DNA from: Owenia fusiformis
Lineage: Eukaryota; Annelida; Polychaeta; Sabellida; Oweniidae
Length of the DNA: 64,000 nt
Direction of reading: 5' to 3'
NCBI GenBank assembly: GCA_903813345.2
Contig: CAIIXF020000010.1
Coordinates: forward strand, 18,365,181-18,429,180
The position numbers were made by a program, and so were the translations under genes. Under the pieces are notes generated by a model. It was not told the DNA's origin. It worked only from the letters and a program-made list of their open reading frames with translations, and made no database searches. Below are positions 37,198-63,325 of the stretch, one piece after another (within the stretch, counting starts at the first letter, position 1; every line of letters begins with the position of its first letter).

Positions 37198-38675
37198 AAG
37201 GCCCCCAAGAAGCTATAAAGTGGTCCCCAGAAGCTATACAGGGGCCTCTAGTAGCCCCCAGAAGCTATATGTTGGCCTCCAGAAGCTATACAGGGGCTCC
37301 AAATGGCCCCTAGAAGCTATATGGTGACCCTCAGAAGCTATGACAGGGGCCCCCAGAAGCTATATAGGGGCTCCAAATGGACCCTAGAAGCTATATGGTG
37401 GCCCCCCAGAAGCTATACAGGGGCCCCAAGAAGCTATACAGGGGCCCCCAGAAACTATACAGGGCCCCCAGAAACTATACAGGGCCCCCAGAAGCTATAC
37501 GATGGCCCCCAGTGGCCAGAAGCTATATGACAGCCCCCGGAAACTGTACGGTGTTCCCCAATATGGCCTCCAGAAGCTATACAGGGGCCCCTGAGTAGCC
37601 CCCAGAATCTATACAGTGGCCCCTAGTGCCCCCCTAAAGCTATACAGTGGCCCCAGAAAGCTATATGGTGGCCCCCAGAAGCTATACAAAGGGCCCCTAG
37701 TAGCCCCCAGAAGCTATATGGTGGCCCCCAGTGGCTCCAAGAAGCTTTACAATGGCCCCAGAAGTTATACAGGGGCCCCTAGTGGCCCCAAGAAGCTATA
37801 TGATGGGCCCAAGAAGCTATATGATGGCCCCCAGAAGCTATAGGGTGGCCCCCAGAAGCTATAGGATGGCCTCCAGTAGCCCCCAGAAGCTATACAGGGG
37901 CCCCTAATGGCCCCAAGAAGCTATATGGTGGGCCAAAGAAGCTATACGATGGCCCCGAGAAGCTATACGGTGGCCCCTAGAAGCTATACGGTGGCCCCCA
38001 GAAGCTATAGGATGGCATTCAGTAGCCCCTAGAAGCTATATGGTAGCCCCCAGAAGCTGTACGGTGTTCCCCAATATGGCCTCCAGAAGCTATACAGGGG
38101 CCCCCTGAGTAGCCCCCAGAATCTATACAGTGGCCCCTAGTGCCCCCCTAAAGCTATACAGTGGCCCCAGAAAGCTATATGGTGGCCCCCAGAAGCTATA
38201 CAAAGGGCCCCTAGTAGCCCCCAGAAGCTATATGGTGGCCCCCAGTGGCTCCAAGAAGCTTTACAATGGCCCCAGAAGTTATACAGGGGCCCCTAGTGGC
38301 CCCAAGAAGCTATATGATGGGCCCAAGAAGCTATACGATGGCCCCCAGAATCTATGCGGTGGCCCCCAGAAGCTATACGGTGGCCCCCAGAAGCTATAGG
38401 ATGGCCTTCAGTAGCCCCCAGAAGCTATATGGTAGTCCCCAGAAGCTGTACGGTGGCCCCCAATTGCCCCAAGAAACTATACAGGGGCCCCCAGAAGCTA
38501 TACGGTGGCCCCCAAAAGCTATATATTGGCCCCCGAAAACTATATGGTGCCCCCCCCAGTGTCCCCAAGAAGCTATACAGGAGCCCCCAGAAGCTATACA
38601 GGGGCCCCTAGTGGCCAAAAAAGCTATATTGTGGCCCCAGAAGCTATAAGAGGGTCCCCAGTGGTCCCCAGAAGT
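37198..38675 (+). repeat. Minisatellite array, 21-bp unit agaagctatacggtggcccc
   Basis: About 70 degenerate units of ccccagaagctatacggtgg type. A ~290-bp block at 37546-37835 is repeated almost exactly at 38059-38350 (offset 513), showing recent block duplication. The unit is a multiple of three and lacks frequent stops, so several overlapping ORFs of up to 134 codons are open. They are products of the repeat, not evidence of a protein. Confidence 0.9.
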
Positions 38676-42100: not shown

Positions 42101-42430
42101 TATACATTGCAAACATGCTATGTCCAAACAATTCTTATAACAAGTCATTATTTCGTCAAAAATGTTGAACTTTTAGAAAATAAGCATAACACAGAATGTT
42201 GCATAAATTGCAACATTAATTAACAATGCTTATACTATGCATGCAAGTAAGTGTTAATATTCATGTAAGGCAAATATTATATAGAACAGTCCTTACACTA
42301 TTATACCTGTACTTTCAAACAGCCAGACACAATATCCGAGACAAAATTTAAATGTATTGACTCTTGAGTTACTTTACTAATCTCCCATTAGATCTGAGTT
42401 CTTGATTACGAGAATGTCCCCATTTATCTG

Positions 42431-44769
42431 TCACTCTGGATAATCAACCTGTTCATTCTCATCATCGTCACTGTCTGTGTCATCTGACATTCCAGACTTG
42501 TTGTCACGGTAACTGAAATAATACATGTGAGATCATGATTTTTAGTGATGTTGGCAAGTTGATGTCAACATCAGCATTGATGAATGAAATGAATAGGTGC
42601 TGTGCTTAGTTCCAATGACTTGTTTAAATGATATCAAGAGGAGTCAGCTCATGTATTTTCTTGAATTGATGTATGGGTGTGCTTTTTCTGATATCACATG
42701 AGGAAAACTGATTCCTATGAAATATTATATGGCTCATAAAATATCCACATGCATATTGATATAAAAATAACTTGTTAAATGTAACCACCTGCCATTTGCT
42801 ATGGATGCCGAAAACCGATTTCCAAATGCCGAAAACTGTTCATAAAAAGTTGGAGACTATAACAATATGTCACCACTTCTGGTGGTGACATAAAAAAGTC
42901 ACAAATAACAGAGTGTTTGAGTTCTCTCAAGGGTAAGTTACCTTTGTGTAATGGTATTCCCCTCTGGATTGTATGGCTGCATCTTCACCCCCACTGTTTG
43001 AGCAAGTCTCTCACTGGCCTGGATCGCTTGAAGTGTCTTTACAAATAGAAACAAATGAAATTAAACATAGAGAATTTTTAAGAAAAAACTGCACATGGAT
43101 CTCTAATTATTAGCCAAAAGACAAATAAATGTGTTGTTTTAAAGAAGACAGGTGATTTTCAACGGGTCAATCATTTGAAAATCTTTACATGGATATTAAC
43201 CTTTATATTCAACATGTTCACTAATAAGCCAGATTTTACTGTAGATCAATACCTGTTGCTTTTTGGCTTGCTCCTTTTGTAGGTTGAGAGATTCCTCCAT
43301 TGACAGAGTTATACTAGACTCATGTGTCCCTTTAGGTCTATATGCAAGTACACCCTCATATTGAATTGTTTTCTTGCTGGCACCTTTAGACTTATCAGTT
43401 TTAACATCATCAGGGATATCTTTTGATAATACAGTTCTATTATCTATTGTCTCAACTGGCTGGCCAATAGGACTGTCTGATTCGAGTATTGTTGTTAATT
43501 TGCCTTTGTTTTTTAGTTTTCTAGATATTGTATTTGTCTCCATGATTACACAATTGTCTTTAACACTAGGTGACTGTGAGGGTAATTTATCCTTTGGGAT
43601 TTCACTGATGTTCTTGGCTTTTATAGTCCTGAAATAAAAATGTTGATAATAAGGATAATCAAAATCATAATCATACCATACCCTTGAATATAGAATAGAC
43701 AGTTCTCCATAGGGAACATTCAAAATGGCCATCTTAACATTATAAGAAATACCTTAAAACTAATCAAATGATTTGGGTCCAAATGTATAGATGAGACTTC
43801 ACAAACAAGATTTTAGGATGGAACATCAAAATGACTGCTTTAATATTTACCGGGAATGTCCAAAAAGGAGTCGGCTTTCTTTGTTTAACTTTCAACCTAC
43901 ATAGCTGATGCGATGGAAGAATAATTCAAATTGGAGTTTTAAGAAACACGACTTAGGACATACAAAATACCATGGGCTTTCTAGTTGAAAGCCCATGAAA
44001 ATACACATATAATATTGACTTAAATCATCTCATACTTACTGGTAGGCCCGGTAGTGCGTTTTGGGTTCAACTGAATCAATCTTCTGTATGACTTTAGCAT
44101 AGCTATTGGATTCATCAGATTCATAGTTGATCTGTTTCTCCTTAATCCTGGGATTAAGCATCTGTTTTAATGGATCATCATCCTCAATGTTTGTTTCTGG
44201 CCTTATTTTCATTTGTGTGAATAAAGATGCAGTCTGATCCACAACTTCTAATTCTTTTATCTTTTGTTGTAATTGTTCTGCAAATGTTCGTATTTTCTTC
44301 CCCCTGTCTGGAAGTTTGTTGATGAATGATCTGTAACACAAGAGGATTCATGTAAAACATATTAAACAGTTAAACATAAAATGATAATATACTTATATTA
44401 CAATTTGTAGTGAGTATCTACTACCTAAAGAAGGTATCTCAAACATGTTACAGGCCCGTAGCGAGGATTTGCCATGGGGGGGGGTCCATTTTTTGAAAAA
44501 TTCCAGGGGGGGTCACTTGTGACAATTTTGGTCCAAAAATGGCCAAAATCACTTAACAAGTGCTCAGAGTGGTAAAAAAATGCATGATATTATTAGATAT
44601 GCAAAAGGTTCTGAATCTTGAAATGCAACTTTATCATTTGTACTCACTTATTGTTCAGCAGCTTCTGCTGTCTTTTTAATAGTTCTTCAAGCTGAGTTTT
44701 TGTGTGATTTTCAAGGTTACCAAGGTAACCCTGCTTCTCAGTATCTGTCCTTATAAATGTATCAGCCAT
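42431..44769 (-). CDS. POLR2M: RNA polymerase II subunit M (Gdown1/GRINL1A)
   Basis: Five minus-strand exons, 44648-44769, 44040-44330, 43253-43628, 42942-43036 and 42431-42512, join in frame to 321 residues; human GRINL1A is about 368. Gdown1 binds RNA polymerase II, competes with TFIIF and makes initiation Mediator-dependent. Conserved blocks in order: TQLEELLKRQQKLLNNK followed by SFINKLPDRGKKI, split by intron 1; SITLSMEESLNLQKEQAKKQ in exon 3; ERLAQTVGVKMQPYNPEG in exon 4, the hallmark C-terminal motif; and an acidic Ser/Asp/Glu tail. The middle is poorly conserved, as in other species. The start MADTFIRT is the first Met of exon 1, and all splice sites are GT/AG. Upstream, 45190-45240 has ETS-like and NRF-1-like words. 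Confidence 0.93.
44451..44543 (+). repeat. G-tract repeat in POLR2M intron 1
   Basis: caggcccgtagcgaggattt, G runs, then gtcacttgtgacaattttgg: a second, longer copy of the fragment at 30781-30850. Confidence 0.65.
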
Positions 44770-47390
44770 TGTTCAGATAGGATTCTTGCTAAAAAATGAT
44801 TGACACTTTGATATACAGATTGTCACAATTTAAGAGAGAACTACTGGACTCAGTTGTCAACAACATGGACTTGTAAACACATATTACATTAGATGCTCAT
44901 GTGGACTCAGGTGGCATAACGTAAAAATCCATTTTCTGTGAAATGCATGATTAGTCTACCAGCCAAGAGATATCACTTTCACCTTCAATGACCAATTTTA
45001 TAAACTGGACTCATTTGCCATTAAACTCATCTCAGAATGTTCACTGTTATTTCGCTTTTTTGTTTGTGCATGTGCAAAAAACTAACCATGTGCAGATTGT
45101 CTCTAAAAGTGGAATATTAAATATGATTGACGTTCATTTCTCTAAGATACTGTGCTTATGCCAAGGGAAAGATCAATATCCGGTGATTTCAGCGGGAAGT
45201 GGCGTTTCGTTCAGTGGATGAGCTGCTTGCGCACGCATAAATGTGATTATCCAATATTATTAGGGGAGGGTTATTTGAAATAGTTTTTGGTCACAGGCGC
45301 GACCCAGGGCTGTTGTCTTAAGGACATTTCGTTGAAAATGAGCCATTCGGCTGATAATTGGTAAGAGTTTGCGATCTTATTATGTATAATTGTTACTCAG
45401 ACACATATTTTGACACGATTCTGTTAAAAATAAGCTTTGAACCGAGAGATATTCACGATTGATATGCACATTTTTGATTGTGCCATTGCTTTTCCATTGC
45501 ACAATCCATGTATTGATAGAAGTAACATTAATAATGTAGATTATTTTACCTTCAATACATGGCAGACACTACATATCGGTCTATTAAATACCAGTTTGAA
45601 CCTTAAATAGTTTTATATTTCCATCCACGGCCTGGAGAGCCTGGGTGTGTTTGTCTCTTATGTGTATGCTTGTGAATTGGTGGGGCTGGTAGGGCACCAA
45701 TCCCCTGGCCCCGTCCACTCTTTATTCTTCTTCCCACTTACTCGAGTCTCTATAGCCAATTACCGGAATTTCCAGAGGGCTTGGAAGAAGATAACTGTCC
45801 CACCAGGTACCTCTGGGGGTCAAGATTGGATTAGACATTTGAAGTAAGACTGGTCTATGACTGTGGCACGAGTCCCCAACCCCCGGGCCCCAACCTAGCA
45901 TACCTCCGGGGTCCGGGCATACCTCACTTACGAATCAGCAAGGGGGTAAAGGCGGGGGTAAAGGTCGGGGGTAAAGTAAGTATCCGACGAGGGGGGGACG
46001 TTGTAGAATTTAACATGATGCAAACTCGACATTATAACTCATGCTGTAACATTTTGACTTCGCTGGAAAACAATAGGAATTATTTTTCTTGCCAATCAAT
46101 CATGAATCACAATCAAAATTTCAGAATGATCAATCAGGCAATGGTCTGATCATGGGCTCTACCACATTCAAACATTTTATGATATTCAGCAAGAAGTCCG
46201 GTAGAAATATAGAATATTTAAACATCAAAGCTGAAAGTTAAAAGCTAATCTGTCAATTTTCTGTCTGCAAAAGAGCGTTTACATTTGACACAATAACAGA
46301 CTGAGGCTTTGAAATCTAGGATTCCCCAGGAAAATATGACGTCATACTAATGAGCATAAGGATTTCCCTATTGGTCTGGGTCGAGCCTTGCTCGAAAACA
46401 CAATCCATAAATACATGCTAATTTCTAAGGAGATAGGAAGTGTATAACGTGTTTATCGATTTTGTTTAAAGATTTAATCAATTATCAAATTGTTTAAGTG
46501 GATAAAGTGGTCACACTTGCTTCAATTCATAGCGTAATCGACGGATAGAAACTGACCGAATTCCCGATATCCTACCCCGTATTACTGTAGGCTATTAGCT
46601 CAGTGACCTACAGAGGGCGCTATTACAAACAAGTACTGCACGAACCGATAAATTCCCGGGTATTGTAACGCCCTTGCTTATGCTTCAAGATTGACAAAAT
46701 AAATCAGAGGGGGTTACATACAGATGTCGACGTAAGGAGTTATTCTTGATTGAATTTTGTATTCATAACAAGGCAACTTGATACTCATATATGGAACAGA
46801 ATATCGATTTGCGTCCCTGGGAGACACAGAATGGAATTTTGGGCGATAATAGATGAAACAAAACTGGTGTCATCTGCAACTTGATTTCTTGAAGTAAACT
46901 CTCTTAAAAATGAACAATCAGTAGCTTTAATGCGAAATTATATATTCATATTAACATACATTGTAATCATAGATAATATACACGCCGTTTGATCCTGAAA
47001 TATACGAAATATATATGAATGAAATTTCTACCTGTTTTTACTTCTGGATTTTCTATTGTTTGTAATCACGAAATGTCAAATGACTATCAATAGGTGTTAG
47101 TGACATCTATCAATAACCTCAATTTCAGAATGGTGTTCAGCCTAACCTTGCTTTAAAAAACTACCATTCCACCCTGGAGGGATCTAGATAAGGTGTGGTG
47201 GTGGTGGGGGTCAATTGATTGGAAACCACAATTGTGACCCTTTAACTGGTTTTGTACTTAGAGGTCCATGTCTAAGCATGATGACAAATTTTGAGAAATC
47301 ATGACCTTTTATCATTATCTTTCTAAGCAAGCCATTTAGATTGTCTTTGTATCAGAATGAATGGACCTGTCAGGGCCAGGGATACATATT
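44770..47390. other. Upstream of POLR2M; no further gene seen
   Basis: The first few hundred bases hold probable POLR2M promoter DNA: gcgggaagtggcg at 45192 and tgcgcacgca at 45228. The rest, including a G-rich stretch at 45870-46000 (repeated gggggtaaag), shows no coding pattern. Confidence 0.45.
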
Positions 47391-47605
47391 CAGTGATCTC
47401 CCCAGGATTTTTTCTCAGGTGGGTGCAAAATTCTCATTTTCAATGTTTTCACAATTCAGACCAAAATTGTTCAAAATATGCCAATGTTTCATGATTTTCC
47501 TCATTTTCAAGTGGGTGCAAATGGATTTTCAGGTGGGTGCAAGCCTATTTTCAAAATCTCAGTTGGGTGCTGCGCCCACTTGCTTTAATGCTGGCGAGAT
47601 CACTG
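47391..47605 (+). mobile_element. ~210-bp MITE, copy 1
   Basis: Ends cagtgatctccccaggat and atgctggcgagatcactg form terminal inverted repeats. The body holds repeated caggtgggtgcaa and ends with gtgctgcgcccacttgcttt. Two further copies follow at 49424-49627 and 51439-51643, all in the same orientation. Confidence 0.78.
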
Positions 47606-48555
47606 ATATGCATTGTAGCTATATTGTAATTTATTTTCTAAACTTTTATATCAATTGTTTTTGAAACAATTTTTGAGCCCATTTATTCTTCAAGGTTCGG
47701 AGGGTCACAGTTTAGAACATTTTTCATCCAATGACTTTCAAGAGACTCCATCTCTAAGCTGGAGGTGAAGAATATCTTTTACTCAAGACACACTTGATAC
47801 TTGAAATTCAAAATTTTTATCTTGTTACTTAGCATACCTAAGTCTTATTTTGGACCTAGTCTCCTCTTGTCAGGAATAAAGTTTTCTTGGCGTCTCAATG
47901 ACAAATAATATAATATTTTGTTATGTGCTTCCTATTCACTTGAATGCCCAAAAGCATAAGACAATGACAACATGACATTTCAAGTGCAATAAAATGGGTC
48001 ATATTCGATGAGGTAAACATGACACACATTTAGCAGATTATAAAAGCATCATTTATTTGTATTTTATTTCTCATTTATTTTACTATATTTCTATATAGAT
48101 TTATCATTACAATGTATAGTAATACATCAAAGAAAAACATCAATAACTGTACAGTAAAAATTGAGATGATCAAGATTCAAGAATCAAATTATCCATGCAT
48201 TAGAGAAATGGGTCATATGAAACAGTGACTTGGTCTTTTAGAGGCAACAGAAAACAGGTATTTTCTTTAGTCTTATACTGTTACATGATCCTGAAAGTGA
48301 TGGAATAACTCTAGTATGTCTCCTTCTGTTTTGGTGTAGCTAATATCTGATTATGAGGCATAAAAGTATGACTTTCTTTATATAAAATTGTAAAAACTCT
48401 GTCCCATATAAGTATGATATCCTCTTTGGCTTCAGTTTTGCATTGGGCCACTTATTTAATTTCCCTGTCTCTCATTGTATTACGCCAGCTACATCACTAT
48501 GTCCATTTTCTAACATTGTTCAACTTTTGTCATATGGTGAGGTTTTCAACAGAAT

Positions 48556-51073
48556 TTAATTTTCAGTACCATCTTTCATGTATTTCTCCTGGATGTCTTG
48601 TATTTTCTCATATTCAAATTCAGCACCAACTGCACAACTAAGTAATGAGTGAATGTTGCGTTCTTCAAGATCGCCAAATACATAACCATTAGCTTTATCT
48701 ACGCACTGCATCACCCGAAGAAGTGTTTCTTTATCCTGGAAAGAGGAGCGTCAATTTTTTATAAGATTTAGTTGTGCCTTTTTTAAAGATTATACATACT
48801 ACTTAATATATGGCAAGTACTGAGAGAATGCATATTATTGTTTCAATACAATATTGTTTATGCATTAACAGATTAAGTAAAATAGATGTTTTTCATTAAA
48901 AATATCATCTCAGGTTTTGACTTGTACCTGATGTACTACATTTATGAAGATCTATGGGAGCCTGGAGTAATTTTGAGATGATAAAATGGATAGAATGGCA
49001 ATACTGATACACAAAACAATGGGTCAGGTTTGAAGAACAACCCACAAAGAGAAGATTAATAAACTGCCATCCATATGGACCCTGGCTGCCGTCAAAAGGG
49101 ATGAATATTTTTGCCTGATAACCTTGAAAATAGATTTTGTAGAATTGGGATTTTTTTCTCTTTTATTCAATTTAACATGACAAATGTAAATGGTTACAAC
49201 TTACAAAAAGTGTCATAATTTGGTACTTTCACAAAATATGGTAGCCATGACAACATTATGTCACCAACATCTTAGTGTTGAATATAAAATCAAATAAGAC
49301 AGTTACAAATAAACACTATTTTGATGAAAAATAAATCAAATATATGAGTTGATATATCTATATATTAATAGAGACGTTCACATAAAATAAGAGAGGAAAT
49401 TATAGTATAATCATTACACATTTCAGTTATCAGGATTTTTTCTCAGGTGGGTGCAAAAGTCCACTCAAAATATGCCAATTTTTCATGATATTTCTCATTT
49501 ACAAGTGGGTGCAAATGGATTTTCAGGTGGGTGCAAGTCTATTTTCAAATTCTCAGGTGGGTGCTGTGCCCACTTTTCTTTTATCAAAATCAATGTATAA
49601 ATGTACTTAATGCTGGGGAGATCGCTGCATTATATACCGTACCTGTATATTCATAGCTACAAACGTAACAAGACTATAATCCTGTACCAATCCAACTATG
49701 GCTTCATTCAATTTGGCATATTTGGCAAAGAATGGGTCTTTCTGAAAACATAAAAAATATATGGCATTCACAAACTGTAAGGTAAAAACTAACAATATAG
49801 TATTGAAATATTGATACATAACTCCTTCTAACCTCAACTGTGAAGTCCAGTAAGACTTCAATATATTACCCTTTAATTTCAGGGTTCTCCACTCAGGTTT
49901 TTCAACTGAAGTTGTTTCAATCACCATGGTAGACTACTGAACTAGTATATAACTTGGTCATAAGCCATGGTGTTCCGAAATAGGTTAGGACCATGATCCA
50001 ACTACATGTATCTCCAAATGTAAAAGATTATGCAAGAGCAAAAATATTCAAGATATGGCTCCCACCTACCTGTAAATGTTCAAGGAGAAAATCTAAATCT
50101 AGGACTTCGGTATAGAAATCAAGGTTGAATGCCAGCTTGCCATAGTTTTCAATGAGATCTGCTTTGGAGAGTACATTAACATGAGGAAGCTCAATTTGGA
50201 GCATGGTATTCAAAGATGTCAGCAGTACTGAGATAAACTTTCCTGGCTCACTGCAGTAGTGGGAATCTACAAGATGCACTGAGCACAACCTGAAGAAAAT
50301 GTAGGCATATTTTATTGAGAAAATACAATAGAGGACATTACTTGTATTATTGGTATTATTACTGAAAAGAGCTAAATGAGTGTTCTAAGTGACACTCATC
50401 AACACAGAAAAGGCTGAACAAAATGAAAAAAGGCAATTCATCATTTTCAAAATTCAGAAAAAACATTTTTTAACATCCAATGATTAGCCAATAACATAAG
50501 TATATTTCATCGGGATTAATACAACATAATATATTAATACAACATATTCTGTATATACAGATGCTTGGTATTGTCTCTATAGTGATACTAATCAACACAA
50601 AAGAAAAAACAAAATGGAAAATAGAAGTTTTACATTTTTCAAAAACTTCCAAGTATTCAAGAATATTTAAGTTTACCAGCAACCTACCTAAAATCCCACT
50701 TAGTCAGCTGTTGAAAGATATTCTTCACAGAGTTATGATGTGTATACAGCTCTACCTGTCCAGGACAATCAAAGAGCAGGTAACAGTCTTTAAATTGATC
50801 CAGCTGGAGTTTAAGCCAGTCCATGTTCTTCTCTAAGTACTCAATACAATAGATAAGTCCTCCATTTGGGCCTAGGTGTAAACTATCCATGACATCAGTG
50901 AGTGTCACAAGGTCAGAAATATCTATGGAACATTTATATGGAAGGCTATCATTGGCTGGGTCGAGGTTAATAATCGCAACTTTACGTCCAAGTTTACTCA
51001 AGAAATCATACATCCCTGTGCAGTATGTAGTCTTGCCACTTCCAGGTGGACCAATGACTACTTGTCCAAACAT
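48556..51073 (-). CDS. GPN2: GPN-loop GTPase 2
   Basis: Four minus-strand exons, 50688-51073, 50070-50289, 49643-49741 and 48556-48735, join to 294 residues (human about 310). GPN GTPases help assemble and import RNA polymerase II/III. The P-loop is [11 protein letters not shown] near residue 8. Then come NLDPAND (switch region), GPNGGLIYC with the diagnostic Gly-Pro-Asn, [11 protein letters not shown] (G3), [17 protein letters not shown] (G4 position, where SK replaces NK as is usual for the family), and [12 protein letters not shown] near the G5 position. The C-terminus [12 protein letters not shown] matches the family tail. The start MFGQVVIG lacks the few extra N-terminal residues of the human protein. 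It begins 53 bp after the ANAPC13 stop on the same strand. Confidence 0.96.
49424..49627 (+). mobile_element. ~210-bp MITE, copy 2, in GPN2 intron 3
   Basis: cagttatcaggattttttct to ctggggagatcgctg. It contains the caggtgggtgcaa body of copy 1 and ends only ~15 bp from the GPN2 exon 3 donor at 49643. Its minus-strand reading lies just inside the intron. Confidence 0.7.
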
Positions 51074-51126
51074 AGTGATAATTTTGTGATAATATTAACA
51101 TATGAAATATTCAGTGATTTTATGTG
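51074..51126 (-). other. 53-bp gap between ANAPC13 stop and GPN2 start
   Basis: AT-rich, no AATAAA on the minus strand (only a weak ataaaa word), and no pyrimidine-rich stretch followed by AG close to the GPN2 ATG. The space is too small for an ordinary 3' UTR, terminator and promoter, which suggests a shared transcript. Confidence 0.6.
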
Positions 51127-51351
51127 CTATGAAGAGGCTGGCTGTTGAGCTTCGTTCAGTTGGTTCAGTGCAAGATCTGACCACTTTTGTTCCTGTTCTT
51201 TCAGTGTTTCTGTTGTTGGTCCGTTATCTGGCTCCAATTCTGGAAGTTCGTGTTGGGGAACAGCAATGTCCTCTTTGGGTAGTTTATCTTCCCGCCACTT
51301 CTGATCAATAATATCAATCATGCGTCCTTCTCGTTGTGCCTCACTGTCCAT
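51127..51351 (-). CDS. ANAPC13: Anaphase-promoting complex subunit 13
   Basis: A single coding exon of 74 residues, the same length as human ANAPC13/SWM1. It starts MDSEAQREGRMIDIIDQKWR and contains REDKLPKEDIAVP and the family core KEQEQKWSDLALN near the C-terminus. The protein is a small scaffold subunit of the APC/C ubiquitin ligase that helps fix the TPR subunits. An acceptor (attgtattcag|atgt) lies at 51364-51366, 13 bases before the ATG, so a 5' UTR intron is present. An upstream in-frame ATG in that stretch is used only if the exon is extended; MDSE matches the family start. GPN2 follows 53 bp downstream with no clear polyadenylation signal between. Confidence 0.95.
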   Translation of the reverse strand: MDSEAQREGRMIDIIDQKWREDKLPKEDIAVPQHELPELEPDNGPTTETLKEQEQKWSDLALNQLNEAQQPASS

Positions 51352-51438
51352 TATTACATCTGAATACAATAAAGATGAAAATCATAATATGATCAATGTT
51401 TGAAAATATAGCAAAACAATGTTTTATATAGCCCCAGC

Positions 51439-51643
51439 CAGTTATCTCCACAGGATTTTTTCTCAAGTGGGTGCAAAATTCTCATTATCACAATTCAGAC
51501 CAAAATTGGTCAAAATATGCCCATTTTCATGATTTTTCTCATTTTCAACTGGGGGTAAATGAATTTTCAGGTGGGAGCAAGCCTTTTTTCAAAATCTCAG
51601 GTGGGCACTGCGCCCACTTGCTTTAATGCAGGGGAGATCACTG
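51439..51643 (+). mobile_element. ~210-bp MITE, copy 3
   Basis: cagttatctccacaggattt to aggggagatcactg, with the same body as copies 1 and 2. It lies in the inferred 5' UTR intron of ANAPC13. Confidence 0.72.
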
Positions 51644-52237: not shown

Positions 52238-53689
52238 AGTCTATTGAACTCATTTTGAAGGTATATATTATCAGTTTTTCAGTGAGAAAAAATTGTCACA
52301 TTGCAAACTGATAACCTATTATCGCCCATTAAGATAATTTGTTTTTCTGTTTTCTTTTCCTTTTTTACTCAAAATAAAGATGTAAGTCTCACATATTTTA
52401 ATCTTAACATTCAACTCAAATAAGTCGAACATGATTAATTACTGATATCATCAATTTTTTATGTTCAAAATTTTGACTTCAATGGTTGTTTACATAAAAC
52501 AAACGGAAATATTTTTATTTTTCCATCCTCAAATATATTTTTGCATCCTTTACATGTACGGATTGGCGTTAATGCAAGCCCTAAGCCCCATTACTTTTTG
52601 ATCAGGTGAGCTCTAAGAATTCAATTTCAAATACTTTGATGATTTCAATGACAGCTGAAAAGAATCTTTAGCTTTTTCTCTACAGTATGAAGCAGGGCTC
52701 ATAATTCGATTTCAAATACCATAAAAGTGATGACAGGATCCAGAGTCAGGACTATACGATTACAACATGGGAGAATTTTCTATGCCTCTTACACTTAAGA
52801 TACCTACTTCAATAGATTCCTGGGTATTTTAGCAATTTTTTTCGTGCAGCTGAATCCACAATTATCTGGGTTTGTCGGCAGAACAGGAACATTTTCCTTT
52901 TTCATAGAGAGAGATTCGTTCACTTTTCAAGATGGCGGTTCGATTTAAAAGGGGATTCCCCATTTGACTGGAACGGAAGTACCAATAAATGGAGGAATTT
53001 GACAGTTGAAATAAGTTAAATATTACACGCAAATATTGCGATCAAAAATAAAAAATGTCTTCGTTCTGCAGATAAACCCAGATAATTGAAGATACTACAC
53101 AAAAAGAATGCTAAAATACCATTTATTGAAGTAAGCATCTTAAGTGTAAGAGGCTTAGACAAATTTTTGTCCTATGTTGTAATCGTACAGGCAAAAGATT
53201 GAGACCTTCTCAGGACCATTGTCCTGGATAACTAAATTCTAACCAAAGAATAATTATACTCGGAGGAATTGAAAATAGTCACTTGTTGTTTTTGCAACTG
53301 AAATTCCATTCAAAATTTCCCAGCTCATCACCCTATTTCCTGATTTTGAAAGAATAATATGTTTTGAGAAACAATAGATAAAAAAGGTAGGCAAAATAGA
53401 AGGTGGTCTCAAATTACTACAGAAGTTGATTTTGAACTGTGGGCTACAGACATGACTTCAAAATCACCAAAAGTCGAGTGACATCCTACTTTTCCTCCAA
53501 GCTTAGATCTATCATAAAAATAAATTCAAAAATTGGTCAATTATCACCCACGGATATCAAAAAAACTTTTGTCAAATTGAATTTACGTGATGAGGACGGC
53601 TCAATGTGAACTGAAACATTGTTCCGTGTAAAGTCCCATGTTCCATACGTGCCTGGTAAAGTAACCTAGGAAAATACTTTCGCAATTAC
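52238..53689. other. Presumed ANAPC13 5' UTR intron; no other feature
   Basis: AT-rich, no recognised coding sequence. On the minus strand a good donor (aaagag|gtaatt) lies at 53690/53689 and would pair with the acceptor at 51364-51366 to give a ~2.3-kb UTR intron. Confidence 0.4.
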
Positions 53690-53875
53690 CTCTTTATTAC
53701 TGCATCTTCAGCTGCGAGTACGACGTGACCGAGTGTGGCAGTTTATCTTCTACTGCGCATGCGCCCCTGAAGTAAATAAACACGTTTGATTTTCGAGAAG
53801 TATATTCGAAGGACAGAGCTTTATGTGGTATTTCGGCATATCTTTGCATTAGATTTAGTTCACTTGTGAGCAACA
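53690..53875. promoter_or_regulatory. Bidirectional ETHE1/ANAPC13 promoter with NRF-1-type site
   Basis: tgcgcatgcgcc at 53754-53765 fits the NRF-1 consensus and is palindromic (gcgcatgcgc). It lies ~110 bp before the ETHE1 ATG and within ~70 bp of the putative ANAPC13 UTR donor. NRF-1 drives many mitochondrial and housekeeping genes, which suits ETHE1. The ANAPC13 start site is inferred. Confidence 0.55.
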
Positions 53876-56800
53876 ATGGCATCGTTTATACGTTCTTCAA
53901 AACCGTTATGTTCGACGGTGCTGTCAAACCTTTGGAAGGCTCAAAACTTGAACGAGAAAATTGGTCGTAAATTTTCAACTTCAGCAACCTGCAACATGGT
54001 TTTTAGACAGGTAAGCTGAGTACTTTTTATTTAGTTCTATATTTCTCTTGCAGCTTTCAAAAACATATCGAGTAAAACGTCATTTAGTATAAACATTAAT
54101 TGTAAACTACTACATGATTCTTAAAGGACCACTTTGCGTAATTTCAACATTTTCTGGCAAAATAAGTCTTATTTGAATTTCATGGTTCATGTATTTCATC
54201 AATGGATTGATAAGTACTTAACCAATTCATTTGACACCAAAACAGCTCAAATGGGCCATATAAAAGCTTGCAACAATATGTTATCAAAAAATATTTCTGA
54301 TCTGTCAAGCTTTATATATCAAGTTTTCATCAATGTCAATGAAAGATGGTGAAGTTGTTGAATTACATGATACATTCATTTTCATAGAAGTGTCGCCATC
54401 TTGTCAAAAATGTGCATGCACTACTAATGATCTCTGAACTTCAAATGCTGTTTTCTACATGAGTTATTTTTCCTTGGTCTAATATTACTGCAAATCAAAC
54501 TTTGTATCATATTTAATTGAGCAGAGGCGGATCCAGGATTTTGTGTTAGGGGGGGGGGGGGGGGGCGTGTTAGTATGTATCCAACAGACCGAATATAATA
54601 TTCGGTCTGTTATGATTGATGTATTTCCTGTGGAAATCGCGGTGATATTTTTTGCACATAAATTTCTCGTTTATTACAAGAATGTTCACCTTGAAAATTG
54701 GTGAATATGTTGAAGAGATGTTCATCTTAAACTAGAAGCAAAAATATTTGTATAAGGCGGGTACAAGTTGATATAAAATAATGAAATGTTCAGACTCACC
54801 AAAACTTCCGGATGTGTTCATAAGTAGATCGCGAAATCAATGTCAAGGACGTTTGAGTTCACGAGATCCAAACGAGATATGCAAATGTTTGAACTTTGAC
54901 AACACATGACCACTTGATTACCTCGGCCTTCTTCATGAATATTTCCGCTCTATTTACTATAAATGACGAAAATTAATCGGGATAATGATAATAAATGACT
55001 AGATCTAATAAATTCCCGCACAAATGGAATTTATCAATACGCTTCCGTAATGTTGCTTCGTCCGCTCCACGTGTTATTTGTTTACAAATAGACTGACGTC
55101 ACTGGCTAAATCTCGTTTATCGTGAGAATTGGCATTGCCAAAATGGCTTGACCTAATCAATGGCTTCGCTACAAGAAGCGTCTGTACACAGAATATCTTC
55201 AGCAAGAGGACAATATACGAAAAAATAATATTGTAAGTTCTTTATAAGGTAATCATTTTATCATTAAACTAACTTATTTGTAACATTTATACAACACCAC
55301 ATTTTACAATAGGTGACTTACAGTCTGAATTTATTCAGACGAAGGATACAGTCTAGGGGGCGTGTGATGATAACTGTGAGCGAATTAAAAAAAAGATTCA
55401 AATTTTGTCAAAAGCAATGAGGCAAAACACACATTTTCTGACTTTTTAGTGGGGGGGGGGCGTGCGCCCCCCACGGCCCCCGTCTAGATCCGCTGGTGTT
55501 GAGTGTGTGAGTAACATATTTCAATGATTTCTTTTACCTTGTTTCTTCATCATTAAGCACAAGTGGGCTTTAACATATTTATCATTAATTCATCAGTTTC
55601 TTTCTAAGACCTACAATAGATTCCAAGAATTGATTGGCTATTGATATACCCTTAACTTAGATTACTGAACTGTAAATGATGAATGTCAATAGGTGGATGT
55701 GCGCAACATATTTTTATGGTCAAAAGTACACATCTCTTGTGATGTGAAGGTACATTGACAGTTGCATAGAGTGGAGGTCTAGGTCTTATCCACAAGACAT
55801 TGTACAATACCCTGCATGTACCAAATACCAATACTCATTTGCAATTTTAAAGGCCTTGTGTAAATTTTGAAAGTATTATAGTTTCAATATTGACATGTTA
55901 CTTTTCATGACTTGAAAAACTATTTGAAATCTAAAATTTTAGTTGAAATTAATTCATAATTTTTCAAACAAAAGTCCTTCAAAATTAAATTTTTGAAATC
56001 AAATTGAAAAGTTTCACATACTTCATTTTGTTAATATTAGGTAAGGCTATAATATAAGCCAAAGTGGTTTAAATTTTATATGGGGCCTTTAATGCTTACA
56101 ACCCTTTACTACACTATATCATGAAATGTTGATGACCATGCACTGTAGACATGTAGTTATCAGTCCTTAGTTATCGAGTTCCAACTTCCAAGCCTACATT
56201 GTCAAGATTTGTATTGCAAATAGTTATGTATCAAAGATAACCATAAAGGACACAAATAGCATAATCTGACAATGCCAAACACTAAACACTAAAATCTAAG
56301 TTGTCTCTGACTTCTTTCTGTTGCATTGTCTGATACCCTTCATGTACTGACCAGCTGAATTCTATAGAGTCTATACACTTTGTGTGTAATTCTGTATTTG
56401 TACAAAGGACCAGGTATAGTATGGCAAGTGATTTTGGACAGTCATATCTTTTACCATTCATATTTTCTCTCTCTAAAGTATTCTTGTGTACAAGAAACAT
56501 TATTTTGCAGTATATTATGCTTTCATAATGAACTGAGAGTGCCATTATCGGTAAAAGAGTCAGAATTGCATTAAAGAAGTAAAGAACCCTATATCATTCT
56601 TAACATCCATTCTCTAATTCACTGAAAAGGTTTTCAAAATATCTTTTAAAAAATCAGAATCCAAGAAAATTTTGTATAATGACATTTTAAAATGTTCAAC
56701 TCCAAGTGAATGATTAAACAGGGACATTATATTATTTTTATTTTTTATATGTCCATATAAAAGTAGTTTAAAGCAAAAAGTATTACTTTCAAATTGCCGT

Positions 56801-59800
56801 TATTCTTTATCCCTATTTCTTGACACTGATGTCAGTTACAGGTTAAAAAATAGTGGCTTTCATTTATCTATAACTGCCAGTGAACATGTTTAAATAGTCA
56901 TAGTACAGATTTGATAAAAATAATCTGTTAGGTGATAGTAAACTGTTTGTTATAATATGTTGTGTTATGGCAATGCTACATATTAAATTGACATACCTTT
57001 TGCTCTTCAAAATACTTGACAAAGTAGATCAAGGACAAGATAAAGTGATACAGAGTCATAACATAGAGTACATGTCTCTGAGAGACAGCATTCAGATGCT
57101 CTACCTGACTTACTAAACTCTTTTTGACATTCAAATACATTAAAACCCATGTAGGAGGAACAGTTTTGGTACCTCTAAAAGTGTTCCACTTATGAGATGC
57201 TCCTCTTATAGAGAGGATAATTTATTTAAAAACAAGTCAATAGGTTGCGGAACTTGCAGTTAAACCTTTAAGTAGAACACCTTTGGTACCTCTTAAATGT
57301 GTTCCACCTATAGAGGTGTTCCACTGACAGAGGTGTTTACAGGTTATAAGGTTATACTGTAGATAATGTTTTGATTGGTCTGAATGATCCCACCTTAAGT
57401 ATTCCCTCCCTCTCATTAAAATGTTTCAATGTCAAATCCAGTGATGTCAAGGATGAACATGGTTTGTTCATTTGAAAGGTTAGAAGATGGTAGAATGTGC
57501 AGAGTATCACATTTCAATTAAAATGAATTTATTTCAAGTTGTAATCTCAGTTTATAGATTGTATAAAGGAACCTTTGGCAACTTCATGTTTAATCAGTAT
57601 TTTTGATATCTTTACATGCTCTTAACTCTCAATGATAAAATGTAATATATAGGTAGCAGTTAGGTAGTAATGCATAATCTCCCCTGCCAGTTATTCAATT
57701 ATTTAGAATGGTTTTAGTATTGAATTAAAAAAATGTGACACGTGCAGGGGTTTCATTAGCAGCAGGCAACAGGCGATTTTCACCAGTTGTTTTCACAAAA
57801 TCGTCTGTTGTTTTTTAGGGATTTTTCATGTTTAATTGATGATTTCCATTAATTTTGCCTGTTGTTTTCATTGAAACACTGTTGTGGGAAATTCTAGTGT
57901 AACCCTTGCTGGTGTGATTTTCTGACAACAGACATAAATGAAAACAACAGGCAATTCAAAATGTATGGAAACAGTTGCCATATACATATGTTTGGTAGAG
58001 ACAGGATTCTTATATCAAAATAACATTTTATATGTCACTTGAAGAAAATAATCCTATATTTATTGCTATGCTTTACTGTTATTGAAAATTGTATATCGGA
58101 TGTACGTTTGGCCCTAAAAGGGCATCAGTACTAATAAAATCCTATTCTACATTATGTATTAAAGGCATTATAAGTGTCAAGGCCTTGCGATATCAATGTT
58201 TATATTAATGACTATCAGGGTCAGCAACAATGTGAAATAGAGGTTCCAAAGATCGATATTATCAGCAGTTGCAAAATTCAAAGAAACTTTAAAGGGACAC
58301 AACCTGAAAGAACATACAATATCCCATAATAAAATGACTTGACTTATAATGCAACCATTTATGAAAATAATTATTAACTTGAAAAATGCATACCAAGAAA
58401 CAGCTGCATGAGAACTGTTCCAAAAATGAGAATAAGAGCTTGGGCTACTTTCTCATTAACTTACTAGTTCTTGCTTATAATGAATCATCCAGGTTATATT
58501 AAACAATAGCATACCTGTCTGACTTGCATTGTTTTAGGCTCTAATAATATGAATGGTTTCGTTCATTGTTTTTCATTTTTTCATTTTTTCAGTGTTTTAA
58601 TTTTTCATTTGTTGCAGTTATTTGACAGTAAATCATGGACATACACATACCTGTTGGCGGATGATGAGAGCAAAGAGGCCGTCGTGATTGACCCAGTGTT
58701 AGATCTGGTCGACAGAGATATTAACATTGTCAAAGAATTAGGCCTCACCTTGAAGTATGGAAGTATGTAATTTTAATTAATTGACATTATATTATATAGG
58801 TATTGATTATATAATTATCAAACAATTTTTTCAAAATTCATCACTTTGAGCATTTTTTGAGTGATTTTGGGTCAAATTTGTCAAATATTAACCCCATAGA
58901 ATTTTTCAAATTCAGATTGGCAAAATCTGGTTACATTATGAGAAAAAATAGCACCTCCACTAACACAATGTTTAACCACGTCATCTTTGATCTTTATAAT
59001 TTTGAGACAGTATGATAACATATTAGAGGTCTTTGACATTTTATTTTTACATCTTCACATTTATTTATTTGATTTTTGGTCATTAAACAAAGTCTGTGGA
59101 GATGTTATCACCTGCATCTGTGTTTACCACTGAACCCCTCATAGTTTTCTGCAAGTTGAAATGCTGAATTCTGCAAGCGAAAAATGCCAATTCAGCAGGA
59201 TTTTTCAGCCCTTTAATGAAAATGATTAGCCAATCCCATTTGCGCTCAGTGAAAACAAAATTCGAGGAGCTTAAGTAGCAGCAAACTAATAGAATATGAT
59301 GTCTATTGGATATTTGTATAGCCCAGATGTAGATTGTGAAATCAAGTCTTGTTTACATATATATACTTGACAATAGAAATATGTTGGTCAATATTATATA
59401 ATTTGTTCATGCATAGTTCATATGTATTGCATATGTGTACCTGTATACATAGCTGTATGTACAAAAGACTATTTCTAGCTGAATATTGTTATACTTTGAC
59501 TGAATATTTCAGTAAATAGCTGTGGCCCAGTCTTAGTTAGCATCATGACCCAAATTGCTCGAAAATAGCTCTTACATTGACATTTTAAAATACAATATGC
59601 ACTTTAACATATATGCCTCACCTATCCTCTTGCAAGTTATGAACATATTTTTTTTAAATTTCAGTTTTTGTAGATCTTACTAGCATAATATGGAAACATA
59701 AGTATCTTGTATTCATGTAAACTAGCTAACAGTAGATAGACTCATCTAAAAACACATTGGTCAACTTTGCTTCTTTTCTGATACAATTAATTACTAGTAA

Positions 59801-62800
59801 ACACTGATTTCAACATATTAATTGATTTTTCATGTTGATCTACATTTGAACCCTCTCACATTTATCAAGTTGTTGTTTGCTTAATTATCCCATCGAACGA
59901 AGTTCAGAGGGATATAGGGAACGCCTCCGTCCGTCCGTCCGTACGTACGTCCGTCCGTCCGTCTGTCCGTCTGTCCGTCCGTCCGTCCGGGCAATAACTC
60001 AAATACCGTTGGCCCGATTTTGTTCATATTTTGTAAACATATACCCTATGGGGGTAGAAGTTCTGCTCGAAAGCCGATTTTCAAAATGGCCGCTCATTTA
60101 AAAATGGCGGCCATTTTTGTGCCGATTTTACAGTAATTTAGGTGCAATATGTAAAACTGTAATAGCAATATGTTTTAAATGTAAAAAATTATATAGGACA
60201 TTGATAAAGCTAGAAATAGAGATATTAAAGAAGCACATGGCAGCCATCTTGAAAAATGGCGGCCTTTACTCTTTATTTTACGATTTTTGCTGTAACTCAA
60301 AAAGTAGTGGAGCGATTTTGTTCATATTTGGTTTGTGAATACTATAAGCATGGCACACTGTCTAATGACACTTTTGGTAGAAGGCGGCCATTTTTCAAAA
60401 TGGCCGCCATTTTAACGTATTTTACTATAACTCGAAAAGTAGTGGAGCGATTTTGTTCATATTTGGTATGTGAATGACATAAGCATGGTACACTGTCCAA
60501 TAACACTTTTGGTAGAAGGCAGCCATTTTGAAAAATTTCAACCAATTTAAAGTATTTTACTATAACTCGAAAAGTAGTGGAGCGATTTTGTTCATATTTG
60601 GTATGTCAATACTATAAAGAAAAAGCATATTACTTCTTCTGATGACAACTTGGCTAGTGAGCAACCATTTTGAAAATGGTGGCCTTTCTTATGTGTTTTT
60701 TATGATATTTGCTGTATATTTCGTTTGTTAAAATGCCAGCCATTTCTGTTCGATGGGATTCGCTACGCTTTGGCGTTGCCGTTGTTCTTGTTGGGGTATT
60801 CTTAATCTTACACCTATTTATTGCTGCAGAAATCTTCACGTTATCATTGATTTACATTTTTGTTTTCCAGTTAATACTCACGTTCACGCAGATCATATAA
60901 CAGGTACGGGGGTCATGAAAAAGCGCATTGATGGATTCAAAAGTGTACTGTCTGAAAAAAGTGGAGCAAAAGCAGATCTATTCCTTGCAGATGGAGAAAA
61001 ACTCAACTTTGGAAAATATGAAATCGAAGGCAGGTGTACTCCCGGACACACAAATGGTGAGATTACTCTACGCATTATATAAGGGTTAATCCAAAAATTC
61101 TGCACTGTTTGCTCTAAAAATCTCAATTCTTTGAAGATTGTTAATACTAGTATTTGCCCTCAACCACCCCATATATAGTCGTTTCATTTTGTGTAAAAGT
61201 AATAACTTTGACCATTAATATTAGGTGTCTGATTACCAAAGCAACATGACAACAGGTATGTTGGGCAACAGTACAACATATTTTAGAGTTATGTGTGATG
61301 TGATCGTATACACAATGTATGTGCATATTTTCTTTTGATGAAATCTCTAAAACTAGAGCACTTGTACTTTTATTTCCCAGGGACTGTAATGATCAATATT
61401 CACCTAATGCAGAGGGTGCTTGCAGAAACCCTTCAAATATAATTTGCCTATGATGTGGAACCAAAAGTCATTTTTGAATTTGAATTTGTGTCAACTGCTA
61501 TTTACTTCATTGTAATTATTTAATTTTTTGTTTCTTTTTGCAGGTTGTATGTCATTTGTTATACACAGTGAGAAGTTAGTGTTCACTGGAGATGCTGTTC
61601 TCATCAGAGGCTGTGGAAGAACAGACTTCCAACAAGGTACAAGACAATACATGTATTATGAAAACATTGTTTTCAGCAAGATTATCCATTTCACTGTGGT
61701 TGAACTCTTTAAACTGTTTATGAAAATAATAACGAAATGTCGCTAACGTTTTCATAATCAGTTTGAAGTTTGACCACTTTTTAATGCAATTCTCTTCATA
61801 GAAGGTCTTATATTACAAGATTTTTGTCAAAATAAGGAGATACATGTACATATCAACAAAATATTTTAAAGTAGAAAGCACTTGATTTTACTTGCTGTTG
61901 AGATAACATTTGCCCACCAGTATTCAAAATCTAGTGCAATGATTGAATATAACTATCATTTATATTTGTTTTACATTTATTTGGTTACTTGCAGGAGATC
62001 CAAGGTTATTGTACAATTCAGTGAAGTCAAAGATCTTTAGTCTACCAGATGATTTCTTGTTATATCCTGCTCATGATTACCTAGGTAAAGTATGCTGGAA
62101 TGGGGAGTTAAAACTGCAAAATCTGTCCTGAGGGTATACAGTAAAACCTGTCTCATATGAATGCCACTTGGGCCCACCAAAAGTGTTTTGTTCACTCAAA
62201 TCAGTAACTCAATGAGAGATAACAACGATAGAGAAAGTGTTCACACTGAAAAGTGTTCACTTAAGAGAGGGTATTCGGGTGTACAGGTTTCACTGTAACT
62301 AGGTTGTTAAGAGAACTGCCTCAACAGATTTTCACAGAATTATATTTGTTTAAACTGAAAATGAGGTCCAATGCTTTTAATTTATCACATTTGAACTGAA
62401 AATGCCTCATCCATTTTCTGAAGTTTTTCTCTGAAACTCATTGAGGTATCTAAAACATGGAGCCTAAAAATGTTCTAACATTTAGGAAGCTATGCCAACC
62501 ATGTTAATTGTACTTTATGCCATCATGTTAATTGTACTTTATGCCATCATGTTAATTGTACTTTAAGCCAACCATGTTAATTGTACTTTATGCCATCATA
62601 TTAATTGTACTTTAAGCCAACCATGTTAATTGTACTTCATACGAACCATGTTAATTGTACTTTATGCCATCATGTTAATTGTACTTCATACCATCCATGT
62701 TAATTGTACTTTATGCCATCATGTTAATTGTCCTTCATGCCAATTGTACTTTATGCCAAACATGTTAATACTCTTTTGCCAACTGTACTTTGTATTTACA

Positions 62801-63325
62801 GGTATGACATCATCTAGTGTTGGGGAAGAGAAGAAACACAATAAAAGACTCACAAAATCAATTGATCAATTTGAAGAAATCATGAATAACCTGAAGTTAC
62901 CCTACCCTAAACAAATAGGTATAGTTCTGTTTTTATTATGTTGATTGGCATCCAGGGTGGGTCAGCCAAAATTTAGGGCTTATATCAAATAATTGAATTA
63001 CAGAATGGGTTACAGGTGGGCCATTGTTTAGATACTGCACTCTGTCCATATGTGAATATGAAACCTCATTGGACTCGTACATTCTACAATAAGAGAAAAT
63101 AAAGGATCTGACTTTTACCAGGAAAATACCACAAAGCAAGTTGCAGCCATTTTATGTTCATGTAGATAATGATTAAACTGTAGATAGCTACCACTAAAAG
63201 CCGAACATGTCAAGTCAAAAAGGTTTTCAGATATATTATTGTATTAGCACTTGCTATGTATTGTGTTTTCAGACACAGCACTGCCAGCCAATTTAGTGTG
63301 CGGAATACAAGATGATGTAGCATAA
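53876..63325 (+). CDS. ETHE1: Mitochondrial persulfide dioxygenase
   Basis: Seven exons, 53876-54010, 58618-58762, 60871-61056, 61544-61636, 61995-62084, 62802-62918 and 63273-63325, join in frame to 272 residues (human 254). ETHE1 oxidises glutathione persulfide to sulfite in the mitochondrial sulfide pathway, using one Fe(II). Exon 1 encodes a basic, Ser/Thr-rich N-terminus ([16 protein letters not shown]...) without acids near the start, a typical mitochondrial import signal. The metallo-beta-lactamase fold shows [19 protein letters not shown], the THVHADH metal motif (Val replaces Cys of the human HCHADH), [25 protein letters not shown] and YPAHDY; the iron ligands His, Asp and His are all present. 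The C-terminus ends with [11 protein letters not shown]. Introns 2-6 are phase 1; intron 1 is phase 0. Confidence 0.97.
54522..55498. mobile_element. hAT-like element in ETHE1 intron 1
   Basis: The ends cagaggcggatccag and gatccgctggtg are inverted, and TTGAG flanks both sides (54517-54521, 55499-55503). Poly-G and C-rich tracts lie inside the ends. A perfect internal hairpin, 12-bp arms acagaccgaata at 54584-54610, sits near the left end. No transposase was seen. CAG-starting ends suggest hAT, though hAT normally leaves 8-bp duplications. Confidence 0.72.
57138..57361. repeat. Degraded pogo-type MITE
   Basis: Repeated gttttggtacctct, gtgttccac and cctatagaggtgttccac words lie between taaaacccatgta at the left and ggttatactgta at the right. 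The ends are loosely complementary. Confidence 0.4.
57855..57954. repeat. 18-bp inverted repeat
   Basis: ttgcctgttgttttcatt (57855-57872) is perfectly mirrored at 57937-57954. Related gttgttttcac words lie just upstream, near 57785. Confidence 0.65.
59928..59992 (+). repeat. (ccgt)n microsatellite
   Basis: About 15 copies of the tetranucleotide, with a few cgta and ctgt variants, in ETHE1 intron 2. It is followed by the ~135-bp repeats. Confidence 0.9.
60000..60700 (+). repeat. ~135-bp tandem repeat with gttcatatttgg core
   Basis: actc(a/g)aaaagtagtggagc, then gattttgttcatatttggt, recurs near 60294, 60431 and 60560, with an older version near 60000. Between copies lie aaaatggc(g/c)gcc words that pair with each other. 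The (ccgt)n tract followed by these units is probably one dispersed element family. Confidence 0.78.
62137..62297. mobile_element. Pogo/Tigger-type MITE in ETHE1 intron 5
   Basis: tacagtaaaacctgt and its near-complement acaggtttcactgta bound 161 bp with TA at both ends. CAGTAAAACC is a common pogo/Tigger terminus. It starts just 52 bp after exon 5. Confidence 0.7.
62485..62795 (+). repeat. Tandem repeat of catgttaattgtactttatg
   Basis: About ten units of 23-30 bp (atgttaattgtactttatgccatc with tgccaacc variants) run to within ~10 bp of the acceptor of ETHE1 exon 6. The final units supply its T-rich stretch (cttttgccaactgtactttg). Confidence 0.85.

Follow-up and report, generated by a model that had tools for sequence, protein, structure and literature searches.

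Dicistronic arrangements are uncommon in animals but known. FlyBase release 6.04 lists 159 dicistronic pairs, and in 45 of these both products apparently come from dicistronic mRNAs only (PMC4528330). Sloth1 and Sloth2 are bicistronic in flies; a similar layout is reported in a choanoflagellate, a sea squirt, and a lamprey, and the two are split in jawed vertebrates (PMC9681215). The human MOCS2 locus is likewise bicistronic and is read by leaky scanning, its frames overlapping and its products being subunits of one enzyme (PMC9607355). Known human bicistronic mRNAs are described as having an NMD-immune layout, in which the second coding sequence (CDS) spans the downstream exon junctions (PMC3951408).

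The window analysed here is a 64-kb stretch of DNA from the annelid Owenia fusiformis. Its minus strand carries ANAPC13, which encodes APC/C subunit 13, and immediately downstream GPN2. The two genes probably constitute one transcription unit with a dicistronic mRNA. In human, ANAPC13 and GPN2 are located on different chromosomes. The coding features and the gap between them are as follows.

51127..51351, minus strand: ANAPC13 CDS, single exon, 74 aa, ATG to TAG, with Pfam and structure-chain matches
51074..51126, minus strand: intercistronic gap of 53 nt, AT-rich and without AG, with a weak CATAAA at 51124 and an out-of-frame ATG at 51101
50688..51073, minus strand: GPN2 exon 1 with the start codon (ATG at 51073), from alignment and PF03029
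50070..50289, minus strand: GPN2 exon 2, from spliced alignment
49643..49741, minus strand: GPN2 exon 3, from spliced alignment
48556..48735, minus strand: GPN2 exon 4 with the stop codon, from spliced alignment

The ANAPC13 product matches Apc13p (PF05839, E 3e-14) in a Pfam profile search and the human APC13 chain 4ui9_M (E 3.1e-27), and it is 62% identical to the human protein. GPN2 exon 1 matches PF03029 with an E value of 2.1e-49 in the same type of search. The four GPN2 exons have 63%, 69%, 52.5%, and 44% identity to human GPN2, and their spliced alignment covers residues 8-302 of that protein. When joined, they give an open frame of 294 aa with a stop at its end. The preliminary description of this DNA had placed the ANAPC13 stop codon 53 bp from the GPN2 start codon on the same strand and had called both CDSs complete and conserved. 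A recount of 51126-51074 returns exactly 53 nt on the minus strand, and the frames and matches above agree with the remainder of that statement. The locus thus has two complete, conserved, and non-overlapping CDSs on one strand, as in dicistronic genes.

A profile search of the genome contigs gives a single Apc13p match in the whole genome, at the ANAPC13 locus. PF03029 has nine genome matches, of which two are at the GPN2 locus and seven at two places on contig C12, where the best alignments are to GPN3 and GPN1. Since Apc13p has one match and the other GPN-family matches belong to GPN3 and GPN1, this locus appears to be the only source of both the ANAPC13 and the GPN2 protein. Comparison of ANAPC13 with viral contigs and of GPN2 exon 1 with bacterial and archaeal contigs yielded no relative, as expected for animal genes. 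A search with the COX1 family was negative. The same genome contains three phosphagen kinase matches that are single open frames of 432, 440, and 394 codons (C10:18.52 Mb, L001; C1:48.61 Mb, L002; C6:8.7 Mb, L003). These coexist with multi-exon relatives, and creatine-kinase-type genes are present.

The surroundings of the pair contain another gene and several repeats. POLR2M (Gdown1), with a Pfam GCOM2 match, lies at about 42430-44770 on the minus strand, some 4 kb downstream of GPN2. POLR2M is Pol II-associated and GPN2 is a Pol II assembly factor; their proximity is probably a coincidence. A dispersed repeat, GGTGGGTGC...GCGCCCACTTGC, has copies at 47487-47605, 49481-49599, and 51525-51643, beside and inside GPN2, and a further copy in a MOCS2B intron (L014, about 1100-1290). 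A first look at the genome gave 2853 candidates for it, 40 of which were scored. Most of the window has a G+C content of about 34%. At 38109-38646 on the plus strand, overlapping open frames of short repeats rich in GPQKLYGGP-like units lie within a stretch with raised G+C and are probably a minisatellite.

Short spacing says little in itself. If 26,966 genes share 505.8 Mb (PMC9977687) and the gaps between them are assumed to average about 10 kb, roughly 70 same-strand pairs this close would arise from random spacing, so the 53-nt distance alone is not extraordinary. It is the absence of processing signals, rather than the short distance, that carries the weight for a shared mRNA. These signals are of two kinds, splice sites and poly(A) signals.

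Splice sites were scored with matrices trained on 35 introns of this genome, comprising 30 of 44 called introns and five placed by hand. Of the 14 dropped introns, six were duplicates or near-duplicates that came from aligning a GPN1 query to the GPN3 gene, and eight were misalignments judged by eye; dropping introns by eye may favour strong sites in the splice model. All 23 minus-strand AGs in 51420-51060 were scored. Only one scores like a typical real acceptor, and the other 22 score 1.23 or less. This acceptor is located 5' of both start codons.

51360..51361, minus strand: splice acceptor TTTATTGTATTCAG, last intron base 51360, score 8.32

It scores higher than 12 of the 35 left-out real acceptors, and its score is equalled or exceeded by 1.2% of the window's minus-strand AGs. 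Between the two start codons, only two AGs, both inside the ANAPC13 CDS, reach the lowest tail of real acceptors: 51228 with a score of 1.23 (above 2 of 35) and 51301 with 0.21 (above 1 of 35). The gap contains no AG in its 53 nt and hence no splice acceptor, which bears out what the preliminary description had said of it. Nine GTs from the ANAPC13 exon through the gap to the first bases of GPN2 were scored as donors; the highest, 4.37 at 51345, exceeds 3 of the 35 left-out donors. Judged by these acceptor and donor scores, a single exon appears to contain the ANAPC13 CDS, the gap, and GPN2 exon 1.

The lack of a good acceptor between the two starts argues against two other ways of making a GPN2 mRNA. 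The first is the use of alternative 3' splice sites in one pre-mRNA, with a leader joined either to 51360, giving ANAPC13, or to a site inside ANAPC13, giving GPN2 only. A pyrimidine run, CCTCTTCATAG, terminates at the ANAPC13 stop codon and suggests such a site, and 51228 and 51301 overlap the range of real acceptors at its lower end. In contrast, the AG at the stop codon, with a score of -5.8, is lower than every one of the 35 real acceptors and is rejected as an alternative acceptor, and the remaining AGs between the starts are below the typical range. Splicing of this type is very unlikely. The second is an operon resolved by spliced-leader (SL) trans-splicing, as in nematodes and tunicates. 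The tight spacing on one strand would suit it, whereas the 3' splice acceptor that should lie just 5' of the second gene is missing at GPN2. A lack of operons and trans-splicing is also reported for the annelid Dimorphilus and described as "similar to other annelids" (PMC7854359). On both grounds a trans-spliced leader is disfavoured, and this explanation is extremely improbable. RNA elements were also looked for. An Rfam scan of the 64-kb window gave no match at gathering scores, and the 141 nt surrounding the gap have no stable fold (z +1.39), so a structured RNA element around it is rejected; the lack of one counts against the shared mRNA.

The poly(A) signals of the locus are found further downstream.

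50311..50316, minus strand: AATAAA within intron 1 of GPN2, the nearest canonical poly(A) hexamer 3' of ANAPC13
48052..48079, minus strand: three AATAAA hexamers (from 48079, 48068, and 48057), likely the GPN2 3' end

From 51126 to 50317, AATAAA and ATTAAA are both absent. The earlier claim that the gap has no strong poly(A) signal also holds, its only candidate being the weak variant CATAAA. Weak hexamer variants are found in GPN2 exon 1, for example AGTAAA (50998) and TATAAA (50938), and in intron 1 too. A good acceptor and a strong poly(A) signal are therefore both absent between the two CDSs, as in dicistronic genes.

The main rival to a shared mRNA is a pair of separate, overlapping transcripts. 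GPN2 would then have a start site inside the ANAPC13 exon or the gap, and the ANAPC13 mRNA would end inside GPN2. GPN2 would need no acceptor in that case, and the AATAAA at 50316 could be the 3' end of an ANAPC13-only mRNA. Furthermore, the strong context of the ANAPC13 start would make translation of GPN2 from a shared mRNA inefficient, and many fly dicistronic loci also yield monocistronic mRNAs (PMC4528330). Against separate transcripts, the ANAPC13 exon and gap have an unremarkable CpG observed/expected ratio of 0.51, a value that 36% of windows attain; promoter-like features are situated elsewhere, at 53.7 kb. Separate transcripts are the less likely reading of the two.

The features at 53.7 kb lie between the pair and ETHE1, its divergent neighbour.

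53690..53753, minus strand: putative 5' untranslated exon, donor AAAGAG/GTAATT, last exon base 53690; the upper bound is the author's choice
53697..53705, minus strand: two-codon uORF ATGCAGTAA in the putative leader exon, its inclusion depending on the start site
53754..53764, no strand: NRF1-like palindrome TGCGCATGCGC, between the starts of ETHE1 and ANAPC13/GPN2
53876..63325, plus strand: ETHE1 gene, seven coding exons

The donor at 53690 scores 8.53, the best of 16 donors above 4 in 53860-51400; it exceeds 25 of the 35 left-out donors and belongs to the top 0.6% of minus-strand GTs. At a distance of 64 nt from it is the palindrome, which is taken to be an NRF1-like motif. It occurs once in the window, and base composition predicts 0.0016 occurrences per strand. 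The CpG observed/expected ratio is 1.25 in 53650-53900, a value that 3.1% of 300-bp windows reach. Several other parts of the window exceed it, so the CpG evidence for a promoter at 53.7 kb can be only suggestive. The divergent genes, the CpG-rich stretch, and the NRF1-like element would fit a bidirectional promoter with putative start sites, and 53690-53876 is a candidate divergent promoter common to ETHE1 on the plus strand and ANAPC13/GPN2 on the minus strand. The location of the promoter-like CpG and motif features at 53.7 kb, not in the ANAPC13 exon, would favour a shared mRNA. ETHE1 itself contains tandem repeats, with a 24-25 nt unit CATGTTAATTGTACTTTATGCCAT in intron 5 (62500-62790) and 135-bp units in intron 2 (60275-60617), the latter downstream of a CCGT-rich stretch near 59920-59990.

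The preliminary description had left three options, namely a single mRNA with both proteins, a GPN2 mRNA starting inside ANAPC13, or a trans-spliced leader. The single mRNA is best supported by the sequence, because one good acceptor precedes ANAPC13, none comparable precedes GPN2, and a strong poly(A) signal is missing from the gap; of the other two, the internal start is the less likely alternative weighed above and the trans-spliced leader is disfavoured. The shared mRNA would arise as follows. A promoter near 53750, pointing away from ETHE1, would start a short untranslated exon. This leader would be spliced at 51360 to an exon that comprises the ANAPC13 CDS in full, the 53-nt gap, and coding exon 1 of GPN2. 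Removal of three further GPN2 introns would give the mature dicistronic mRNA. ANAPC13 would be translated first, and GPN2 by ribosomes that skip the ANAPC13 start, either through leaky scanning or through continued scanning after tiny uORFs, should the mRNA include them.

The start codons bear on how GPN2 could be reached. In the predicted mRNA, the ATGs before GPN2 are at 53705, 51359, 51351 (ANAPC13), 51321, and 51101. The second of these opens a very short uORF.

51354..51359, minus strand: ATGTAA, a start-stop uORF at the exon junction, separated by 2 nt from the ANAPC13 ATG downstream

The context of the ANAPC13 start codon is strong, with A at -3 and G at +4, so leaky scanning past it would be limited. 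Inside ANAPC13 there is a single in-frame ATG (51321), and the gap has the out-of-frame ATG at 51101. Out-of-frame ATGs are absent from ANAPC13, while 2.81 are expected when synonymous codons are redrawn (P 0.017); with codons permuted within the gene, the depletion has a P of 0.10. Among 1451 overlapping windows of 225 nt taken from six control CDSs, 103 likewise lack out-of-frame ATGs, and each of the six controls has more of them than expected. This leans, not strongly, towards a first cistron maintained so that scanning ribosomes can pass it. Wall et al. 2005 reportedly tied translation of the second cistron in fly to a first cistron free of in-frame AUGs, a property said to concern two fly transcripts and not dicistronic genes at large. 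ANAPC13 differs from these fly mRNAs in its in-frame ATG at 51321. According to a fly survey, scanning requirements are unmet by most dicistronic pairs (PMC4528330). The evidence on GPN2 translation from a shared mRNA, which would need leaky scanning or reinitiation, is therefore mixed. The three exon junctions 3' of the ANAPC13 stop are all covered by the GPN2 CDS, which speaks for a shared message.

The start-stop uORF could also act as a translational switch, a reading that is unlikely. A share of the ribosomes, terminating immediately at ATGTAA, would scan on without initiator tRNA, pass the ANAPC13 start, and regain competence before GPN2, about 280 nt further on, where they would reinitiate. 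Because ribosomes need distance to reacquire initiator tRNA, reinitiation after such a uORF would favour GPN2 over ANAPC13. Translation of ATF4 and GCN4 is known to respond to initiator-tRNA (eIF2) supply. If the switch were true, the balance between a subunit of a mitotic ligase and an assembly factor of a polymerase would follow that supply. Reinitiation is described as possible after start-stop uORFs (PMC5972666). The same source states that DENR-MCT-1 might abolish the distance requirement for reinitiation, which weakens the switch (PMC5972666).

A dicistronic ANAPC13/GPN2 mRNA, if true, would tie two conserved and functionally distant proteins to one promoter. The message would carry a CDS of 74 codons with a strong start ahead of one of 294 codons, and so offer a natural and stringent test of the ways in which a second frame becomes accessible to eukaryotic ribosomes. 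A conserved housekeeping pair would also join the known dicistronic animal genes, which in the literature cited here are mostly from flies and vertebrates. A search of the open-licence literature, with older gene names covered in part, found no paper naming both ANAPC13 and GPN2. With wider terms, none of the matches listed concerned the pair by its title or the start of its abstract.

The tandem of MOCS2A and MOCS2B in O. fusiformis provides a comparison within the same genome. MOCS2A is followed by MOCS2B on one strand with a gap of 259 nt (L014:75-1710, C10 near 6.31 Mb), the MOCS2B start being the author's reading. In this genome the tandem persists, and its frames lack the overlap that is described in higher eukaryotes (PMC9607355). 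Five ATGs and a donor-like site of 7.59 are found in the gap, so the MOCS2 mRNAs may differ from a plain dicistronic one. The tandem may be counted for the dicistronic reading of ANAPC13/GPN2, as a control that speaks to position only.

The locus resembles the known systems in some respects and departs from them in others. Nematode and tunicate SL operons have a similarly tight tandem spacing, and ANAPC13/GPN2 differs from them in lacking a good acceptor before the second gene. As in the dicistronic genes of Drosophila, two complete CDSs with distinct conserved products lie close together on the same strand; those genes rest on cDNA and RNA-Seq, whereas the ANAPC13/GPN2 mRNA is predicted from genomic sequence. 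The placement of the exon junctions is the same NMD-immune layout as in human bicistronic mRNAs (PMC3951408). Sloth1/Sloth2 has a comparably short first CDS (79 aa versus 74 aa for ANAPC13), and its human orthologues are on different chromosomes (PMC9681215), a likeness to the human arrangement of the pair given above. In contrast, the Sloth gap is 5 nt instead of 53 nt, the sloth1 start context is non-optimal where that of ANAPC13 is strong, and the Sloth peptides are related and act together (PMC9681215), while ANAPC13 and GPN2 have no known joint function. MOCS2 likewise yields two proteins from one unit, as proposed for ANAPC13/GPN2, but its human frames overlap and serve one enzyme (PMC9607355), whereas ANAPC13 and GPN2 have separate frames and are parts of different complexes. 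Among these systems, ANAPC13/GPN2 is probably another case of the dicistronic arrangement in animals.
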